From NCBI RefSeq assembly GCF_014191425.1, contig NZ_JACHWP010000003.1:1-64000 (forward strand): a stretch of 64,000 nt of DNA. Reading direction: 5' to 3'. Under the pieces are notes generated by a model. It was given only the letters and a program-made list of their open reading frames with translations. It had not been told where the DNA came from and made no database searches. How positions within the stretch are numbered: position 1 is the first letter of the stretch; each line of letters begins with the position of its first letter. The translations under genes were made by a program, and so were the position numbers. Origin of the DNA: Helcobacillus massiliensis. Lineage in GTDB: Bacteria; Actinomycetota; Actinomycetes; Actinomycetales; Dermabacteraceae. Positions 41,193 to 48,915 of the stretch are shown piece after piece.

Positions 41193-41297
41193 CCTACCGC
41201 TGCTGCCCGCCAAGCGATCGCTTACGGGGCTCGCTGCCTCGTCGCTGCAGCGTCGCTCCGAGCCCGCCCAGCCATCGCCCGCGGCGGTTCAACGCAA

Positions 41298-41331
41298 TTC
41301 AGCGCTCATTCCAGGCGGAATGGGCGCTGAA
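41298..41331. repeat. Palindromic element, copy A
   Basis: TTCAGCGCTCATT pairs with AATGGGCGCTGAA (one G-T pair) around an eight-base loop, and is followed by GCGCATGCAACGG. Copy B at 43991-44038 shares CAGCGCT, CGGAATG, GCGCTGAA and CGCATGCAAC in the same order. Confidence 0.65.
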
Positions 41332-41379
41332 GCGCATGCAACGGGGTGTGCGGCCGAGAGTCGCTCTGCGCCCGCCGGG

Positions 41380-41455: not shown

Positions 41456-41532
41456 GTGCACAAGATGGAGTGAAACGCCCCAGATCCGGCCATCGGGCCA
41501 CCTGAGGGGCGGTTTCACTCCAACTTCTGCAC
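41456..41532. repeat. Long cruciform-forming inverted repeat
   Basis: Arms GTGCACAAGATGGAGTGAAAC (41456-41476) and 41512-41532 are reverse complements apart from two mismatches, and the pairing continues inward as GCCCC/GGGGC. Total stem about 26 bp, loop about 24. No T tract at either side, so it is not a standard terminator, although its position between convergent genes would suit termination. Confidence 0.8.
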
Positions 41533-41581: not shown

Positions 41582-41704
41582 TCAGCCGGCGCGCCCCTTC
41601 ATGCGCGGGTTCTTCTTGTTGATGACGAACGTGCGGCCGCGTCGGCGCACAACCTGCGCGCCCGGCTGCTTCGCGAGCGACCGGATCGAAGCACGGACCT
41701 TCAT
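41582..41704 (-). CDS. rpmJ: 50S ribosomal protein L36, cysteine-free paralogue
   Basis: 40 residues, [23 protein letters not shown] and so on. It belongs to the C-minus (YkgO-like) type: the zinc-binding Cys/His ribbon of normal L36 is absent. Such paralogues replace the zinc-containing protein when zinc is scarce. ATGA overlap with the L31 gene. Too short to be picked up by length-based calling. Confidence 0.93.
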
Positions 41705-41985
41705 GCTGCTGACTCCTTCTTCTCTGCGCCGGCGGCCTTTCGGCCGTAACGGCGGTTGAACCTCTCCACGCGACCGGCCGTGTCCACGACCCGTGCACTG
41801 CCCGTGTAGAAGGGGTGCGAGGCGGACGAGATCTCCATGTCGATCACGGGATACTCGCGGCCGTCCTCCCAGGTCACGGTGCCGGTGGCGCGGCCGGCGG
41901 CCGTGGATCGGGTGAGGATGGCGAAGTCCGCGGACTTGTCGCGGAACACCACCGGTTCGTAGGTGGGGTGAATGTCCTTCTTCAT
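41701..41985 (-). CDS. rpmE2: 50S ribosomal protein L31 type B (cysteine-free)
   Basis: 94 residues. [28 protein letters not shown] and [10 protein letters not shown] are L31 type B hallmarks; no CxxC zinc motif. The C-terminus RFNRRYGRK is basic as usual, followed by a short Ala/Glu extension. Part of the five-gene zinc-sparing ribosomal operon. Confidence 0.94.
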
Positions 41986-42073
41986 GTGTGCTTCCTTGTC
42001 TGTGCGCGGCTGTGCAGTGCGGCGGCGCGGGCGTGCAGCGCCGGATCGGGGTGCGGAGGAACCCGTCGGCCCC

Positions 42074-42379
42074 TCACCAGCTCGACTTCGTGATCCCGGG
42101 CAGTTCGCCGCGGTGGGCGAGTTCGCGCAGCCGCACCCGCGAGAGACCGAACTTGCGGTACACGCTGCGGGGGCGGCCGTCGATGCGGTCGCGATTGCGC
42201 AGGCGGGTGGCGGAGGCGTCACGGGGCTGGCGCTGCAGTTCGGCCTGGGCGGCGGCGCGCTGCTCGGGTGAGCTGGCCGGATCCTTGATGGTGCGCTTCA
42301 GTTCGGCGCGGCGGTCGGCGAACTTCGCCACGACCTGTTCGCGCTGGCGGTTGCGGGCGATCTTCGAGGTCTTCGCCAT
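42074..42379 (-). CDS. rpsN2: 30S ribosomal protein S14, cysteine-free paralogue
   Basis: 101 residues. [28 protein letters not shown] and the C-terminal [27 protein letters not shown] identify the long, zinc-independent S14. Its start lies in a TGATG overlap with rpmG. About 90 bases separate its stop from the L31 start. Confidence 0.95.
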
Positions 42380-42546
42380 CAGCGGGTCTCCTTGAACTCG
42401 ACGACGCGGCGGGCGATCGGGTCGTACTTGCGCAGCACGAGGCGGTCCGGCGTGTTCCGCCGGTTCTTCGTGGTGACGTAGGTGTAGCCGGTGCCGGCGG
42501 TGGACTGCATGCGGATGATGGGTCGGATGTCGCTGGCCTTCGCCAT
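42379..42546 (-). CDS. rpmG2: 50S ribosomal protein L33, cysteine-free paralogue
   Basis: 55 residues: [31 protein letters not shown] through [15 protein letters not shown]. The two CxxC motifs of zinc-type L33 are missing. I use the ATG at 42546 rather than the longer frame at 42585, since the latter runs into rpmB. Confidence 0.94.
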
Positions 42547-42547
42547 G

Positions 42548-42784
42548 TCAGATCTTCTCCCCTCGGGCGATGAGGTCGCGGGCAACGGAATCGATCCCGC
42601 GGCGGTTGATGGTCTTGAGGCCGACGGCGGAGACCGTCAGCGTGACCCGCCGACCGAGCGACGGGACGTAGAACGTCTTCGTCTGCAGGTTCGGGCGGAA
42701 GGTGCGGGCGGTGCGCTTTCCCGAGTGGGAGACGCGCCTGCCGGATGTGGGGCGCTTGCCGGTGATTTGACAGTAGGTGGTCAT
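42548..42784 (-). CDS. rpmB2: 50S ribosomal protein L28, zinc-independent paralogue
   Basis: 78 residues. [29 protein letters not shown] and [17 protein letters not shown] identify L28; only one cysteine remains, so no CxxC zinc ribbon. First gene of the zinc-sparing ribosomal operon (L28, L33, S14, L31, L36). A TATAGT -10 box eight bases before the ATG and a palindromic box just upstream mark the regulated start. Confidence 0.94.
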
Positions 42785-42792
42785 GGTGAAGC

Positions 42793-42798
42793 ACTATA
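42793..42798 (-). promoter_or_regulatory. -10 box of the ribosomal paralogue operon
   Basis: TATAGT on the minus strand, eight bases before the rpmB2 ATG, implying leaderless transcription. TTGTTG lies 18 bases upstream as a possible -35, and the palindrome at 42804-42818 sits in the spacer. Confidence 0.55.
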
Positions 42799-42803
42799 GC
42801 GGA

Positions 42804-42818
42804 TGAGAACCGTTATCA
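42804..42818. promoter_or_regulatory. Palindromic Zur-like operator
   Basis: TGAGAACCGTTATCA reads TGAnAAC-n-GTTnTCA, a 15-mer with 7-bp half-sites mismatched at one pair. It lies between the -35 and -10 of the L28 operon and 23 bases before mrf, the standard place for zinc repression by Zur in actinobacteria. Zur binding is inferred from the regulon content. Confidence 0.6.
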
Positions 42819-42840
42819 ACAAGAAGGAGGAGGGGACGCC

Positions 42841-43968
42841 ATGACCCACTCCACGCCCATCGCCATCGTCGCCTCGATGGACCCCGTCCTGCGCGACGGC
42901 CTCGCAGCCTCACTCATGCTCGGGGCCCGTCGGACCGTGACCCTCCGTCACGACCTCACCGGGCACACCCTGCGCCGCGTCGTCTCCGACTCCACCGGCA
43001 TCCTCGACGACACCGCGATCCACCTCGAGCATCCCTGCTCCACCTGCGCGATGAGCACCGAAGCGATCCCCACCCTCCGCTCCCTGGTCGACGCCGGGCG
43101 CTGGGAAGCGATCGTCCTCGCCGTCCCCGTCACGGCCGACCCCCACGTCATCGCGCACCTGCTCTCCGCATCCGTCCCCGGCGCGCACCTGGCTCGCGTG
43201 GTGACCGCCGTGGACTCCCGCACCGTGCAGAACGACCTGCTCGGAGACGACACCGTGGCCGAGCGCGGCCTCACTGCATCCGGTGCGGACGAACGCAGCA
43301 TCGGCGAGGTGCTCGCCGCCCAGGTGGAGTACGCGGACATCGTGGCGGTGGACGAGGAGGACCCCGTCGGCCATGACCTGGTGGCGCAGCTCGCCGCCGC
43401 CGACGCGATCCTCACCGGCCACTACGACGTGGACGACGAGGGTGTGTTCGGCCATCGTCACTCCTGCGACTCGGCCCACTCCCGCCTCGTGCGACCTCAC
43501 GCGCACCCGTCCACCGCGCATGCGTGGACGATCGAACTGGAGGACGAGCGGCCCTTCCACCCGGACCGCCTGGTGGAGAACATCGAATGGATCGGTGCGG
43601 GGCGCCTGCGCGCTCGCGGCGAGTTCTGGGTGCCGACCCGACCGCATTCGGTGTGCCGCTGGGAGGGTGCCGGCGGGCAGCTCGCCATCGGTGTGGATGC
43701 GGAGCAGAGCGAAGCGCGCGCCGGCCTCAGCCGGGACGCCGGGGGAGGGGCCGACGGGGCAGCGCCCACCCCGGGGCCCGTGCCCGCAGTGACGGCTCTG
43801 CCGCGCACCCGCCTGGTCATCACCGGAGTGGACCCCGCTGATGCCGCGCGTGTGCGCCAGGCCTTCCAGACCTGCCTGCTGACCGAGGAGGAGTGGGCCG
43901 ACGGGCTCGCCCCCTGGCTCGGGCGCGCTGACGCGCTGGACCCGTGGCTCGGGCAGCGCGCCGCATAA
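42841..43968 (+). CDS. mrf: CobW-like protein, homologue of mycobacterial ribosome hibernation factor Mrf
   Basis: 375 residues. The protein follows the CobW/COG0523 layout but lacks a Walker A motif (the N-terminus reads IAIVASMDPVLRDGLAASL). HPCSTCAMST corresponds to the CxCC/CxxC region, and RPFHPDRLVENIEW with RARGEFWVPTRPHSV form the C-terminal domain. Mycobacterial Mrf has the same missing P-loop, lies with C-minus ribosomal genes and recruits the hibernation factor Mpy under zinc limitation. AAGGAGG lies 10 bases before the ATG. Divergent from the L28 operon across a shared operator. Confidence 0.82.
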   Translation: MTHSTPIAIVASMDPVLRDGLAASLMLGARRTVTLRHDLTGHTLRRVVSDSTGILDDTAIHLEHPCSTCAMSTEAIPTLRSLVDAGRWEAIVLAVPVTADPHVIAHLLSASVPGAHLARVVTAVDSRTVQNDLLGDDTVAERGLTASGADERSIGEVLAAQVEYADIVAVDEEDPVGHDLVAQLAAADAILTGHYDVDDEGVFGHRHSCDSAHSRLVRPHAHPSTAHAWTIELEDERPFHPDRLVENIEWIGAGRLRARGEFWVPTRPHSVCRWEGAGGQLAIGVDAEQSEARAGLSRDAGGGADGAAPTPGPVPAVTALPRTRLVITGVDPADAARVRQAFQTCLLTEEEWADGLAPWLGRADALDPWLGQRAA

Positions 43969-43990
43969 GGTCAGCGCAGATTCCCGGTTC

Positions 43991-44038
43991 CATGCGTTTC
44001 AGCGCTCTCAATCGCCGGAATGAGCGCTGAAACGCATG
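43991..44038. repeat. Palindromic element, copy B
   Basis: CATGCGTTTCAGCGCT (43991-44006) pairs perfectly with AGCGCTGAAACGCATG (44023-44038), loop 16 bases. Related in sequence to copy A at 41298. It lies between convergent mrf and the siderophore gene, so it could end both transcripts. Confidence 0.75.
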
Positions 44039-44148
44039 CAACCGGACCGGTGGGCCCGGGCCAGGCCGGGGCGGGGCCGGACCGGAGCGGAGGGAGCATC
44101 AGGCCCGCTCGAGGGCGGCGATTCGATCTCCGCGGCCCGGCGGCGGGG

Positions 44149-45957
44149 TCAGGACTCCGAACGGCCCACCCGCCAGTAGCCCATGAAGCTCACCTGCGTC
44201 CGGTCGATACCGGCGTCGCGCACCAGGTAGCGGCGCAGCTGCTTGATGACGCCCGCCTCCCCGGCGAGCCACGCGTAGAACGGCAGCGACCCGCCCGAGG
44301 CGGTCTCCCACAGCAGTATCTGGTCCACGTCGATGTCCTCCGGCTCCTCCCCGGCCTCCAGGAACGGCGGCGGCGCCACGCAGCTGCGCACAGCGTCCTC
44401 GAGCAGAGCCCCGGACGGCTGCGACCCGCGCACCAGCCACTGCACGCGCACGGCGCTGCGCGTCATCACGGGCATCTCATCAGCGGAATCCGGCACTTCG
44501 ATCAGGGCGTCACCTGTGAACGATGCGGGCAGCGCCTCCAGGATCGACAGGATCGCCGGCGCCGCCGTCTCGTCGCCGGCCAGCAGCAGGTGCCGCGCGT
44601 CCCCGGGGCGGAACGCGATTCCCGCCCAGTCCGGCCCCACCACGTGCCGATTCGGTCCGAGGATCTCCACCGTGTCGCCCACCTGCACTGACTGGAGGAA
44701 CTCGGAGGCCCGGCCGCCGATGTGCCGCACCACGTCGATCACGATCTCCGGATGCGGACTCGCATTGCCCGGGTGCAGAGCCTGCCGGTGCTCGCGCACG
44801 GTGTAGGTGCGCATGACGCCGCGCACCTCCTCCGGCACCTGCAGCCACTCCTTGTACCAGGCGTCGGCCTCGGCCTCAGTGCAGCTCGCCCCGGGCCGCA
44901 GACGCTCGATCGGGTCGGCATCGCCGCGGGCGCCGGCGGACGGTGCGGCAGCGGAGGCAGCAGCGGTGCCCGCCGGGCGCCCCGGATCGGCCGACGGAGG
45001 CACCAGCACCTTGACCCGCAGATCCTGCGGGTGAGCCCCGCAGCCGAAGTGCTGCAGGTCCGGGCCGGCCAGCGTCAGGCGCAGGAACGTGGGGGAGAGG
45101 TTCTCCACCTGCGCCACGTGCGTGCGCATCAGCAGCGAATGGGCGATCTCCAGCACCGGACGGGGACGATCCGCAGCCGCCGCCCGGCGCGGCACCACCA
45201 TCGGTGTCCGGGTCTGCGGGTCGGTCACCACGTCCGCGTCCAGGCCGAACACCTCGCCCACCAGCTCCGATGTGACGACGTCCCCGGGCGCCCCGGCGGC
45301 GACCACCGCTCCCTGCTTCATCGCCACCAGGGTGTCGGCGTACCGGGCGGCGAGGTTCAGATCGTGCAGGACGATCGCCACCGTGGTTCCGCGCTCCCGG
45401 TTCAGCCGCTGCACCACGTCCAGCACATCGATCTGGTGCGCCACATCCAGGAAGGTGGTCGGCTCGTCCAGCAGCAGCAGGTCGGTCTCCTGCGCGAGCG
45501 CCATGGCGATCCAGGCGCGCTGCCGCTGCCCGCCGGACAGTTCACTGGTGATCCGGTCCGCGTGCTCCTGCATCCCCGTGGCGGCCAGGGCACGGTCCAC
45601 GGCGGCGTGGTCCTCCGCGGTGAGGGAGCGGAACAGACCCTGGTGGGGGAACCGGCCGCGTCCCACGAGGTCGCGCACGGTGATGCCGTCGGGCGCTGTC
45701 GGCGTCTGCGGCAGCAGGCCGAGCTTGCGCGCCACCTGCTTCGGCGACTGCTGCTGGATCGACTTGCCGTCCAGCAGCACCGAGCCGCCCTGCGGGCGCA
45801 GAAGCCGGGACAGGCCCCGCAGCAGAGTCGACTTCCCGGACCCGTTCGCGCCCACGATGATCGTGACCTCGCCGTGGGGCAGCTCAAGGGAGAGGTCGTC
45901 CACGATCAGGGAGCGGTCATAGCCGAGGGACAGGTGGTCGGCGCGCAGACTGGTCAT
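44149..45957 (-). CDS. FepC-type ABC ATPase fused to a siderophore-interacting reductase
   Basis: 602 residues. Residues 1-260 are an iron-siderophore ABC ATPase: GANGSGKST (Walker A), LSGGQRQRAWIAMAL, LLLLDEPTTFLD and LHDLNLAARY. After a short Ala/Arg linker, residues about 280-600 form a siderophore-interacting protein (SIP) with the FAD-binding RTYTVREHR and the NAD(P)H-binding LLAGDETAAPAILSIL; this half would reduce ferric siderophore to release iron. The two functions are normally separate proteins. The reading frame is open throughout with no stop. ATGA overlap with the permease upstream. Ends the operon. Confidence 0.88.
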   Translation of the reverse strand: MTSLRADHLSLGYDRSLIVDDLSLELPHGEVTIIVGANGSGKSTLLRGLSRLLRPQGGSVLLDGKSIQQQSPKQVARKLGLLPQTPTAPDGITVRDLVGRGRFPHQGLFRSLTAEDHAAVDRALAATGMQEHADRITSELSGGQRQRAWIAMALAQETDLLLLDEPTTFLDVAHQIDVLDVVQRLNRERGTTVAIVLHDLNLAARYADTLVAMKQGAVVAAGAPGDVVTSELVGEVFGLDADVVTDPQTRTPMVVPRRAAAADRPRPVLEIAHSLLMRTHVAQVENLSPTFLRLTLAGPDLQHFGCGAHPQDLRVKVLVPPSADPGRPAGTAAASAAAPSAGARGDADPIERLRPGASCTEAEADAWYKEWLQVPEEVRGVMRTYTVREHRQALHPGNASPHPEIVIDVVRHIGGRASEFLQSVQVGDTVEILGPNRHVVGPDWAGIAFRPGDARHLLLAGDETAAPAILSILEALPASFTGDALIEVPDSADEMPVMTRSAVRVQWLVRGSQPSGALLEDAVRSCVAPPPFLEAGEEPEDIDVDQILLWETASGGSLPFYAWLAGEAGVIKQLRRYLVRDAGIDRTQVSFMGYWRVGRSES

Positions 45958-46904
45958 AGGGAGGAGTCCTTTCGGGTCAGCATCCACAGCAGGAACGGAG
46001 CCCCCAGCAGACCGGTGATGACACCGGCGGGCAGAGGAGTGAGGTCCGCTGTCACGGTGAGGGCGGCGCCCACGGCGGCCGCGGCGGCGAGGGTGAGGCC
46101 GAGGGCACGTCGGCCGGGAAGGAGCAGCCGCGCGATCGGCCCGGAGAGGAACGCGACGAAGGCGAGCGGCCCCGTCACCGCGATCGCGACGGCGCTCAGT
46201 GCCACGGCGACCAACACCACCGCGACGCGGGCCGTGCCGACGCGGGTACCGAGGGACGCGGCCGCATCCTCGCCGAGCTCCAGGGAGGACAGCGGCCGGA
46301 TCACCAGCGCCGCCGCCGGCGCGAGGCCCAGCAGGCAGAGTGCGAGAACACCCGCGCGCTCCCACGACGCGGACGCCAATGACCCCACCAGCCAGTGCAG
46401 CAGGTCCTGCGCGGTGCGCGCATCAGACCGGGTCAGCAGGAAGTTCACCACCGCCTGCAGCGCGGCGGCCACCGCGATGCCCACGAGGACGAACTGGGTG
46501 GTCCCGCCGCGCGCCACCCACATCACGAGCAGCGCGGACGCCAGACCGCCCAGCACAGCCACCGCGCTGAGAGCGGGGCCCTGCAGGGCGAACACGCTCA
46601 TCCCCACCACGGCCGCCGCCGACGCTCCATAGCTGACGCCCACCACATCCGGGGCGGCCAGAGGATTGCGCAGCAGAGTCTGGAACAGGGTGCCGGAGGC
46701 ACCCAGTGCCGCACCGGCGAGGACGCCCACCGCGACCGCGGGCAGGCGGGACTCCACGAGGATGAAGCGCACTCCCGGGGCGTCGCCGGTGAGGCCGAGG
46801 ATGATGTCGCCGGCCAGCAGCAGGGGATCGCCCAGCATGAGGCGCAGCAGGCACGCTGCGGCGAGCCACAGCAGCACCGCGGTCAGTCGGAGGGCAGCGC
46901 TCAC
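45954..46904 (-). CDS. Iron-siderophore ABC transporter permease (FecCD family)
   Basis: 316 residues, eight to ten predicted helices. FecCD landmarks are GASGTLFQTLLRNPLAAPDVVGVSYGAS and the C-terminal GPLAFVAFLSGPIARLLLPG, which contacts the ATPase. Pairs with the second permease to import ferric siderophore driven by the ATPase half of the fusion protein. ATGA overlaps both sides. Confidence 0.93.
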   Translation of the reverse strand: MSAALRLTAVLLWLAAACLLRLMLGDPLLLAGDIILGLTGDAPGVRFILVESRLPAVAVGVLAGAALGASGTLFQTLLRNPLAAPDVVGVSYGASAAAVVGMSVFALQGPALSAVAVLGGLASALLVMWVARGGTTQFVLVGIAVAAALQAVVNFLLTRSDARTAQDLLHWLVGSLASASWERAGVLALCLLGLAPAAALVIRPLSSLELGEDAAASLGTRVGTARVAVVLVAVALSAVAIAVTGPLAFVAFLSGPIARLLLPGRRALGLTLAAAAAVGAALTVTADLTPLPAGVITGLLGAPFLLWMLTRKDSSL

Positions 46905-47899
46905 AGTCCCACCTGCCTGCCGGATCGGATCAGTGCGATGAACACCGGGGCGCCGATGACCGCGGTCATCACCCCGACCTGCACCTCCGCCGGCGGAGCG
47001 ATCACCCGGCCGACGGTGTCGGCGACCAGCAGCAGCACCGGCCCCAGCAGCGCGCTCAGCGCAATGATCCGGGCATAGTCACCGCCCACCAGCAGCCGGA
47101 CCGCATGCGGAACCACGAGTCCCACGAACGCGATCGGTCCGGCCAGGGCGGTCGCTGAACCCGCCAGCAGCACCGCACCCGCACCGAGCAGGATCCGGCC
47201 GCGGGCGACGGAGATGCCGAGGCCCGCCGCGGAGTCGTCCCCCAGGGCGAGGGTGTTCAGCAGGCGAGCCGACCCGGCGATGACCGCAGCGCCCGCCAGC
47301 ATCAGCGGCAGGATCAGGAGGACGTCGCGGACGCTGCGGGCGCCGAGCACCCCCACCTGCCAGAAGCGGAACTGCCCGATCGCGGTGTTGTTCGTCAGCA
47401 GGATCGCGGAGGTGGCAGCGCTGAGCGCAGCGGACAGTCCCGCGCCGGCGAGGGCGAGGCGCACCGGGGTGGCGCCGGCGCGGCCGAGGGATGCGATGAC
47501 GTACACGGCGACGGCGGCGACGCCCGCACCGAGGAACGCGGCGGAGGCGAAGCCGAGGACGGAGCCGATGGAGAACAGCTGGATCGCGGCGACCACGGCG
47601 AAGGCGGCGCCGGCGTTCAGGCCGAGGATGCCCGGATCCGCGAGGGGGTTGCGGGTCATGCCCTGCATCGCGGCACCGGCCACGGCGAGGGCTGCACCCA
47701 CCGCGACGGCGAGCACGGTGCGGGGGATCCGGGAGCGGACCACGTCCGCACTGGTGGAGTCCGCCGCGGTGGTCAGCGCCGCCCAGACCTCGCCGACGGG
47801 AACTGCACGCGCGCCGATCGTCAGGGAAGCGACGATCCCACCGGCCAGGGCGAGGGCGCTGACCAGCAGGATCACCGGGACGGGCAGGCGTGTGCTCAC
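46901..47899 (-). CDS. Iron-siderophore ABC transporter permease (FecCD family)
   Basis: 332 residues. GAAMQGMTRNPLADPGILGLNAGAA and GPIAFVGLVVPHAVRLLVGGD are the two conserved FecCD segments. Start is the GTG at 47899, which forms a GTGA overlap with the binding-protein stop; a longer frame upstream is only a shadow within that gene. Second permease of the heterodimer. Confidence 0.92.
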   Translation of the reverse strand: MSTRLPVPVILLVSALALAGGIVASLTIGARAVPVGEVWAALTTAADSTSADVVRSRIPRTVLAVAVGAALAVAGAAMQGMTRNPLADPGILGLNAGAAFAVVAAIQLFSIGSVLGFASAAFLGAGVAAVAVYVIASLGRAGATPVRLALAGAGLSAALSAATSAILLTNNTAIGQFRFWQVGVLGARSVRDVLLILPLMLAGAAVIAGSARLLNTLALGDDSAAGLGISVARGRILLGAGAVLLAGSATALAGPIAFVGLVVPHAVRLLVGGDYARIIALSALLGPVLLLVADTVGRVIAPPAEVQVGVMTAVIGAPVFIALIRSGRQVGL

Positions 47900-48915
47900 G
47901 CCGTGATGGTCTCGATCCAGGCGGGGATCACGTTCTTCACAGCCCAGGGGAGGGACAGCGCGCTGGCCGCCGAGACCGACAGGGTGGCGTGGTCGGAGTC
48001 GGTGACGATCAGCTTGTCGTTCTGGACCGCGGGGATCCGGCCGAACAGGGAGTTCGCCTTGACGGCCTCGGGCTTCGTGCCGGCGGGGATCCACGAGTAG
48101 ATGACGTCGGAGTCCAGTTCATCGGCGCGCTCCGGGGACCATTCGAAGAAGAACTGGTCCTTCGGGGCGTTCTTGCGCACCACCTCCGCCTCCGTCATGC
48201 CGAGGGCGCGCAGCAGGCGGGGGCGGGTGTCGTCCCCGGTGTACAGGGAGATGGTGTTCGCCGCAGTGTCGAGGGTGGAGGCGATGAACGTGGTGCCCTT
48301 CGGGATGTCTTTGCCGGCATCGGTGATCTGCTTCTCCACCGAGGAGATGAGCTCCTTCGGGTCCTTGCGCAGCGCGGCTCCGATGACGGTGGCGGCCTCC
48401 TGCCAGGACGTCAGGTAGTTCGCCTTGATGGGGCCCACGACGCGGGCGATCTTGGAGAGCTTCTCGTACTCGTCCTTGGTGAGTCCCGAGTAGGCGGCGA
48501 GGATGACATCGGGGGTGGCGGCGGCGATGGCGTCGGCGTTGATGCCGTCGGCTTCGGAGAACAGCGTGGGGGCGGGGCCGCCGAGCTCCGCGAGCTTGGC
48601 GTCGATCCAGTCGGTGGACCTGTTGCCGTTGCCGCCCCACTCCATGGCGGGCATGGCCACGGGCACAACACCGAGGGCGAGGGCGGTATCGGCGTTGACC
48701 CAGGAGACGGTGGCGACCCTCGTCGGAGTGGAGGGGATCTCGGTGGTGCCGTAGATGTGCTTGATCGTCACCGGTGCCGCATCGTCACTGCTGGAGTCCG
48801 ATCCGCCGGCGCCCGGGGATGAGGCCGAGGTGGTGCAGGCGGACAGGGCGGTCGCCGCGAAGGCGGCGGTGGCTGCCGCGGATGCGGTCAGCAGGGATCG
48901 ACGAGAAACGTTCAT
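47896..48915 (-). CDS. Iron-siderophore substrate-binding lipoprotein
   Basis: 339 residues. The signal peptide has an N-terminal SRRSLL (possible Tat motif), a hydrophobic core and a lipobox LSACT, so the protein is lipid-anchored outside. It belongs to the FepB/FhuD-like periplasmic-binding family: IPSTPTRVATVSWVNADTALALGV, PDVILAAYSGL and DSDHATLS near the C-terminus. First gene of the siderophore operon; the DtxR-type box overlaps its promoter. Confidence 0.92.
   Translation of the reverse strand: MNVSRRSLLTASAAATAAFAATALSACTTSASSPGAGGSDSSSDDAAPVTIKHIYGTTEIPSTPTRVATVSWVNADTALALGVVPVAMPAMEWGGNGNRSTDWIDAKLAELGGPAPTLFSEADGINADAIAAATPDVILAAYSGLTKDEYEKLSKIARVVGPIKANYLTSWQEAATVIGAALRKDPKELISSVEKQITDAGKDIPKGTTFIASTLDTAANTISLYTGDDTRPRLLRALGMTEAEVVRKNAPKDQFFFEWSPERADELDSDVIYSWIPAGTKPEAVKANSLFGRIPAVQNDKLIVTDSDHATLSVSAASALSLPWAVKNVIPAWIETITA

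Follow-up and report, generated by a model that had tools for sequence, protein, structure and literature searches.

The 64,000-nucleotide stretch of the Helcobacillus massiliensis genome analysed here (contig NZ_JACHWP010000003.1, positions 1 to 64,000; referred to below as the window) contains a cassette of five ribosomal protein genes lacking CxxC motifs, a divergently oriented gene encoding a protein similar to mycobacterial Mrf, and a single Zur-type palindrome in the gap between them. Sequence comparisons indicate that these elements probably constitute a Zur-controlled, zinc-sparing ribosome cassette combined with an Mrf-like adaptor that would promote the binding of HPF, a ribosome hibernation promoting factor. 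This compound explanation is rated as probable rather than highly probable, because the Mrf-like protein, like the products of the zur- and znu-like genes, stays below the NCBIfam cut-offs. All coordinates follow the numbering of the window, and what is shown at the level of sequence comprises the genes and their twins, the box, a Zur-like regulator, znu-like genes, HPF, the loss of the nucleotide-binding motifs and the conserved layout.

The ribosomal cassette and the box in front of it

The cassette extends on the minus strand from position 42784 down to 41582. It begins with a C- (CxxC-free) ribosomal protein L28 gene of the rpmB2 type (42548..42784), followed by the genes of C- L33 (42379..42546), C- S14 of 101 amino acids (42074..42379), C- L31 of type B (41701..41985) and a C- L36 that is type B-like (41582..41704). 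The families were assigned with NCBIfam and Pfam models: L28 matches TIGR00009 (75.7 bits, above the cut-off) and PF00830, L33 matches NF001860 (82.3 bits, above the cut-off), S14 matches NF006477 (139.1 bits, above the cut-off) and L31 matches NF002462 (122.4 bits, cut-off 86), while L36 scores 66.7 bits with NF002021, slightly below the cut-off of 70, and exceeds the cut-off of PF00444. The CxxC motif is absent from all five products (0/5), and L33, S14, L31 and L36 contain no cysteine. L28 and L33 are separated by 1 nt, L33 and S14 overlap by 1 nt, S14 and L31 are 88 nt apart, and L31 and L36 overlap by 4 nt; given these tight junctions, L28-L33-S14-L31-L36 are likely to form one operon and to be carried on a single transcript. 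The coordinates, the families and the lack of CxxC agree with the preliminary description of this DNA, which had proposed an operon of five CxxC-free paralogues. On the opposite side of a 56-bp divergent gap lies the Mrf-like gene of COG0523 type (42841..43968, plus strand, 375 amino acids), for which a CobW product without a P-loop had been proposed; indeed, neither GxxxxGK[ST] nor NKxD is found in its translation.

The Zur-type operator TGAGAACCGTTATCA, common to both divergent units, is located in this gap at 42804..42818. The exact pattern given in the preliminary description has one site in the 2.6-Mb genome and none in the reversed control, and a looser 7-1-7 palindrome, TGANAANNNTTNTCA, has its only exact genomic site, with 0 mismatches, at 42804-42818. 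When one mismatch is allowed, TGANAANNNTTNTCA occurs at 11 places in the whole genome versus 6 in the reversed control, and many of the one-mismatch sites are therefore probably due to chance. The conservation of the box was followed in 123 spacers that separate Mrf homologues from divergently oriented ribosomal genes, 110 of them distinct. The best site in these distinct spacers carries 0 mismatches in 28 cases, 1 in 58, 2 in 20, 3 in 3 and 4 in 1, so that a box with 0-1 mismatch is present in 86/110 spacers compared to 0/110 in the reversed control; at 2 mismatches the control reaches 22 of 110 spacers. Permuted palindromes are found at ≤1 mismatch in 1.6 of the 110 spacers on average. The actinobacterial Zur consensus taaTGaNAANNNTTNtCANta quoted in PMC5472717 is matched by TGAGAACCGTTATCA over its central 15 bp, the outer bases fitting partly. 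These data support the earlier proposal of one shared Zur-type operator.

The preliminary description also placed the palindrome in the spacer of a promoter, a claim that was upheld in part. Visual inspection points to a putative cassette promoter on the minus strand (42793..42822), consisting of TTGTTG (42822-42817), an 18-nt spacer and TATAGT (42798-42793), with the box extending over the final 2 positions of the first hexamer and 13 of the 18 spacer bases. A promoter scan, at its threshold, lists no site in either direction of the gap, and a promoter in the L28 direction is for this reason only putative, as is the corresponding transcript start, which would fall at or beside the ATG and give a leaderless mRNA. 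No clear hexamers directed towards the mrf-like gene were seen by eye in the intergenic gap.

The Mrf-like protein and the zinc-related genes of the genome

The product of the divergent gene matches the MRF model NF047431 with residues 5-363 on model positions 2-387 of 402 (103.6 bits, E 1.1e-29). As this score is below the curated cut-off of 375, orthology of function is not established, and the protein is termed Mrf-like and kept out of NF047431. HPCSTC occupies residues 64-69, at the position of CXCC, the motif of COG0523 GTPases (PMC2770081). These features are shared by two sets of homologues, one of 50 proteins and one of 79, the latter being the reading frames obtained from 79 of 80 loci on named contigs. 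The P-loop is absent from all of them (0/50 and 0/79), and so are NKxD (0/50) and [NT]KxD (0/79); HxCxxC is present in 47/50 and 78/79, the three exceptions in the smaller set (L097, L098 and L099) having CxxC without His two positions before it. At locus L234, from Dermabacteraceae TAE3-ERU27, the chosen frame of the Mrf homologue lacks HxCxxC, and the gene may be broken or split.

An AlphaFold2 model, built from 46 sequences (the window protein and 45 of the 79 homologues) in which 28 residues are invariant, has a predicted local distance difference test score (pLDDT) of 92.2 and a predicted template modelling (pTM) score of 0.88. In a Foldseek search with the predicted model against the Protein Data Bank (PDB), the sole match at E ≤ 0.001 was Zn-bound YjiA, with a template modelling (TM) score of 0.35-0.40. 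YjiA was also the best PDB match of the predicted model in VIA-align (Z 11.5, 263 residues, root-mean-square deviation 8.9), and the rows at Z 9-10 included UreG, HypB and MeaB, but also GTPases of the signal recognition particle (SRP) and the dynein-arm protein Shulin. At the level of sequence, no PDB entry matched the Mrf-like protein at E values up to 1. Both domains align with those of E. coli YjiA (4ixm), a Zn-bound COG0523 protein, but the overlay is loose, and YjiA has verified GTPase activity (PMC2770081), unlike what would be expected of a protein without P-loop and NKxD. The fold is of the COG0523/G3E class, despite the lack of the intact Walker A and NKxD motifs that define its P-loop GTPases, and a G3E-class pseudo-GTPase is thus the most likely identity of the protein.

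The window protein agrees with the description of Mrf (Rv0106 and MSMEG_6069) as a COG0523 homologue without Walker A and canonical CXCC whose gene neighbours C- ribosomal genes and a Zur box. Rv0106 is likewise COG0523-like, lacks Walker A and has CXSC in place of CXCC (PMC2770081); homology to COG0523, loss of Walker A, altered CXCC and Zur control are common to Rv0106/Mrf (PMC2770081, PMC13418864) and, with Zur control as predicted, to the window protein. In contrast to them it remains far below the NCBIfam MRF cut-off, the comparison with mycobacterial Mrf resting on descriptions and the model. By analogy, the protein is predicted to be a pseudo-GTPase that senses zinc and favours the association of HPF with C- ribosomes. 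A plasmid search for a mycobacterial Mrf matched 870 records, all with <60% identity; among the plasmid matches listed, records from Tsukamurella, Streptomyces and Nonomuraea were opened, two of them without features in that stretch.

Each of the five ribosomal families has exactly two matches in the genome, the second copy carrying CxxC in its translation. These C+ (CxxC-containing) twins are located at G000:C1:477862 (L28), G000:C1:189593 (L33), G000:C2:103337 (S14), G000:C1:407857 (L31) and G000:C2:97164 (L36), G000 being the genome of the window. S18 and L32 have one genomic match each, and both are Cys-free. Seven proteins with known C+/C- pairs are listed in PMC13418864; since S18 and L32 are single and Cys-free here, the cassette covers exactly the five of the seven that are also held in a zinc-binding form. 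The absence of S18 reported earlier is accordingly true of the cassette and not of the genome. The idea that S18 was lost, with altered stoichiometry as a consequence, was rejected, because the only S18 of the genome is already Cys-free and a zinc-free twin of it is not needed.

The genome also encodes the other components. The product of the Fur-family gene at G000:C1:853186 matches the PDB entries 3mwm (7.9e-40), 7vo0 (1.5e-39) and FurB 2o03 (2.1e-38), with other kinds of protein appearing only from E 1.5e-17, and is considered Zur-like on these matches; 3mwm is, we assume, the Zur of S. coelicolor. For a second Fur-family gene (on C15) Fur proteins rank top and 2o03 follows at 4.5e-9. Compared by eye with 3mwm and 2o03, the Zur-like protein aligns in most Cys/His/Asp stretches, its last CxxC reading CPKH. 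The Zur-like gene follows znuA-, znuC- and znuB-like genes, in this order, and a one-mismatch box (L043:6074-6088) is situated within the longest frame, ahead of the likely lipoprotein start of znuA. HPF, a partner that the preliminary description required, is encoded by a single gene, and the protein is long with both domains present. Its top two PDB matches, 9ebb and then 5zep, are both ribosome hibernation promoting factors, the latter presumably that of M. smegmatis.

Conservation in relatives and likeness to known systems

An Mrf-like match at E ≤ 0.001 was obtained in 76/198 genomes of the order, own genome included, although the weak ones may be other COG0523 proteins. Second copies of the ribosomal proteins were counted in 20 genomes, 15 with and 5 without an Mrf homologue. 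In the former group a second S14 and a second L33 were present in 15/15 genomes, and a second L28, L31 and L36 in 14/15 each, while all five genomes of the latter group had single copies of all five ribosomal proteins; the p-values of this co-occurrence are not independent tests, because the genomes are related. In one genome without an Mrf match, G097, adjoining L28, L33 and S14 genes (G097:C70:2695-3395) are the sole matches of their families, and it looks as if the C- cassette replaced the C+ genes.

Gene order was compared in 130 partly overlapping loci, namely the window, 49 stretches drawn from the 76 genomes in which a match was obtained (up to two per genome) and 80 named contigs kept of 144 encoding a relative. 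Ribosomal genes were divergent from the Mrf-like gene in 123/130 loci, and the full gene order of the window, with an extra L31 or L32 allowed, was seen in 71/130. S18 had no match up to 4.5 kb from the Mrf match start in any of the 130 loci. Among the named loci are some from Dermabacteraceae, Brachybacterium, Cellulomonas, Isoptericola, Promicromonospora, Kineosporia and Demequina, the best-matching ones being from Dermabacteraceae and Brachybacterium, in line with a Dermabacteraceae origin of the window. At L071, L085, L091 and L095 the Mrf-like gene is preceded by a one-mismatch Zur box, with no ribosomal genes within 4.5 kb. Extra Cys-free copies of L31 were observed near the cassette in some genomes of the same family (L052 and L053, with partial matches at L054 and L056).

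The content of the cassette may follow the housekeeping copies. A second L32, beside the cassette and without CxxC, was detected only in G008, G116 and G131 of the 20 genomes, and in these the housekeeping L32 is C+. A C- L32 thus accompanies the cassette in 3/3 loci where the housekeeping L32 is C+ and in 0/16 where it is CxxC-free (L32 was read in 19/20 loci, L160 being left out), but as the three genomes represent two families, the pattern may reflect only one or two events. S18, read in 11/20 genomes, was Cys-free in all of them.

The preliminary description contrasted the divergent Mrf-like gene of the window with an in-operon position in mycobacteria, and this contrast was rejected. PMC7174638 lists Zur boxes for MSMEG_6068 (rpmB, -58) and MSMEG_6069 (mrf, -57) that share 21 bp when one is reverse-complemented, which indicates one box between divergent genes in M. 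smegmatis as well; both genes flanking it are strongly induced by loss of zur and by zinc starvation (PMC7174638). The 2026 review PMC13418864 places Mrf ‘within the C- operon’ of this species, a looser wording than the box data. MSMEG_6065-6070 and the window have in common the order L28-L33-S14 (as judged from locus numbers), the placement of an Mrf-type gene on the opposite side and the single shared Zur box, to which the C- versus C+ switch and the HPF (Mpy) partner can be added (PMC13418864). They differ in that S18 adjoins S14 and L31 lies beyond mrf in M. smegmatis (locus numbers, PMC7174638), whereas in the window the left operon ends with L31 and L36, the cassette contains no S18, and S18 and L32 exist only in Cys-free form. 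Zur control of such paralogues was predicted, with a palindrome, for Leifsonia xyli and other actinobacteria in PMC2823685, the regulons of which include Streptomyces coelicolor and Propionibacterium acnes; the COG0523 protein is called there a P-loop GTPase and YciC orthologue, whereas the neighbour of the present cassette is of the P-loop-less kind. A literature search of titles and abstract openings in one library found no study of this cassette in Dermabacteraceae, and the literature searched yielded no test of Mrf-type HPF recruitment outside mycobacteria. The locus adds one more well-formed case to a module that is already known, its arrangement being the usual one in relatives and its shared operator being already implied by the published M. 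smegmatis boxes.

Two hairpins flank the module. One is placed directly 3′ of the mrf-like stop (43985..44045; fold -40.2 kcal/mol, z -8.03) and is a likely terminator; the other, downstream of L36 (41468..41526; -31 kcal/mol, z -4.38), is the likely end of the cassette transcript. A terminator scan listed nothing at either position, both lacking a T run, and the three sites resembling terminators that it did report (plus strand, 41589-41607 and 42447-42463) fall within genes. A palindromic element with GCGCTGAAACGCATGCAAC is found on both sides of the cassette, at 41290-41345 (-29.8 kcal/mol) and at 43985-44045, and the other stretches of the same genome that were read (180,916 bases) contain one further copy (L241:16452-16507); the element could represent either repeated terminators or a repetitive extragenic palindromic (REP)-like element.

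Further boxes were noticed elsewhere in the genome. TGAGTATGATTCTCA (L136:3886-3900, G000:C14:3886), which by eye fits the S. coelicolor Zur chromatin immunoprecipitation (ChIP) motif (PMC5472717), lies ~70 bp before a nonribosomal peptide synthetase gene. The genes of this locus (L136:3969-10913 and L241:30-12710) continue with another synthetase, a thiazolinyl imide reductase-like protein (169.4 bits with TIGR01761, below its cut-off of 188.8) and two permease/ATPase proteins of the ATP-binding cassette (ABC) type, and the locus is a possible Zur-controlled zincophore cluster of the coelibactin/yersiniabactin kind. TGATAACCGTTCTTA (L049:6063-6077, G000:C13:16862) is located early in a frame of unusual length, ahead of the position at which a TIGR03773-type surface protein probably starts; beyond this protein an anchored-repeat ABC substrate-binding protein is encoded (TIGR03772, 581.6 bits, above the cut-off); this may be a second Zur-controlled metal importer. 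Adjoining the cassette (44149-48094, minus strand), a 738-residue frame seems to combine an ABC ATPase with a siderophore-interacting protein behind it, possibly a fusion, and two FecCD-like permease frames (iron uptake) come next, all named by eye from the translations.

Proposed mechanism, rival explanations and significance

In the scheme that we favour, Zur bound to the single box between the units would silence both of them when zinc is present, and both would be released together when zinc is absent. The left unit would then supply the Cys-poor, CxxC-free L28, L33, S14, L31 and L36, which would displace the five zinc-binding copies and thereby free zinc. Mycobacterial Mrf is stable only without zinc and helps HPF to bind (PMC13418864). 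Its zinc-bound form is described as being degraded by Clp. The protein supplied by the right unit, with its G3E/COG0523 fold, lost P-loop and HxCxxC site, is most likely a zinc-responsive adaptor of similar function that would help the long HPF to bind and to park C- ribosomes, and would be stable only in the absence of zinc if it behaves as in mycobacteria. The hairpins at 43985-44045 and 41468-41526 could end the two transcripts. We infer here that Zur binds the box and represses both units, that C- proteins take the place of C+ ones in the ribosome, that HPF is recruited and that the stability of the Mrf-like protein depends on zinc.

Several observations weigh against this scheme. The Mrf-like protein is well short of the NF047431 equivalog cut-off and also matches the ZigA model NF038288 (74.3 bits, cut-off 600). 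The zur- and znu-like proteins stay below the cut-off in each of their NCBIfam matches, the top NCBIfam row of the Zur-like protein is an iron-regulator model, and CPKH places His at the fourth Cys of its second zinc site, as judged by eye. With regard to the operator, one permuted palindrome reached 56/110 spacers, the box, compared by eye with the S. coelicolor ChIP motif tGaNNatSatNNtCa, deviates at 2 of its 11 fixed positions, and the promoter scan is silent in the gap. Moreover, 7 of the 130 loci have no divergent ribosomal genes; at L067 and L175 the contig breaks off on that side, the others being L071, L085, L091, L095 and L168.

The ZigA match raises the question whether the large protein is a zinc metallochaperone of the ZigA/YciC kind serving client enzymes, next to a ribosomal cassette that would still be zinc-sparing. 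The nearest solved structure, Zn-bound YjiA, is in line with such a role, and all members of the alignment (15/15) match both the MRF and the ZigA model at E ≤ 0.001. However, the MRF model outscores the ZigA model (103.6 vs 74.3 bits), the lack of P-loop and NKxD in all homologues of the two sets makes GTP-driven metal transfer unlikely, HPCSTC stands in place of CXCC in a manner similar to the CXSC of Rv0106 (PMC2770081), and the neighbours are C- ribosomal genes in 123/130 loci. An ordinary CobW/ZigA chaperone is not preferred in view of the missing motifs and the score difference, and we regard this explanation as unlikely. Somewhat less likely still, in our judgement, is control of the ribosomal unit alone by the box, the mrf-like gene being constitutive and zinc acting on its product only at the protein level. 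It is consistent with the fair -10 hexamer (TATAGT), seen by eye only in the L28 direction, the scan listing no promoter either way. In M. smegmatis, though, both flanking genes respond to zur mutation and zinc starvation (PMC7174638), a one-mismatch box precedes the Mrf-like gene at L071, L085, L091 and L095 even without ribosomal neighbours, and in the window the box ends 22 bp before the mrf-like start, a distance at which bound Zur is expected to cover or border any promoter on that side. That the locus is a chance assembly or a decaying remnant, with C- copies unexpressed or non-functional, seems hardly credible: the relatives G090, G104, G132 and G174 have no Mrf match and single copies, which means that the set is sometimes missing or has been lost, but the six genes of the locus all have intact reading frames that are found again throughout the order, and the 28 invariant residues of the Mrf-like proteins also speak against decay.

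If the zinc-sparing cassette with its Mrf-like adaptor is placed in a broader context, Mrf-driven ribosome hibernation could be an ancestral actinobacterial response, which took here the form of one divergent Zur module of a pseudo-GTPase and C- proteins, with the cassette limited to proteins that have a zinc-binding housekeeping form and with S18 and L32 fixed as zinc-free. We put this joint reading forward tentatively, its chances being slightly below even. In the literature consulted, Mrf-driven hibernation is described only for mycobacteria. The present comparisons place the Mrf and C- ribosome module well outside this group, in actinobacteria such as Brachybacterium, Cellulomonas and Isoptericola. 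Members of these genera are easily grown and mostly harmless. Two corrections to the preliminary picture follow as well: a shared operator between divergent genes is the usual arrangement, and the Cys-free housekeeping S18 accounts for the lack of S18 in the cassette. What makes the locus worthy of attention is whether Mrf-type hibernation operates outside mycobacteria; if the joint reading is true, the zinc-starved ribosome of this organism would be zinc-free in all seven C+/C- proteins.

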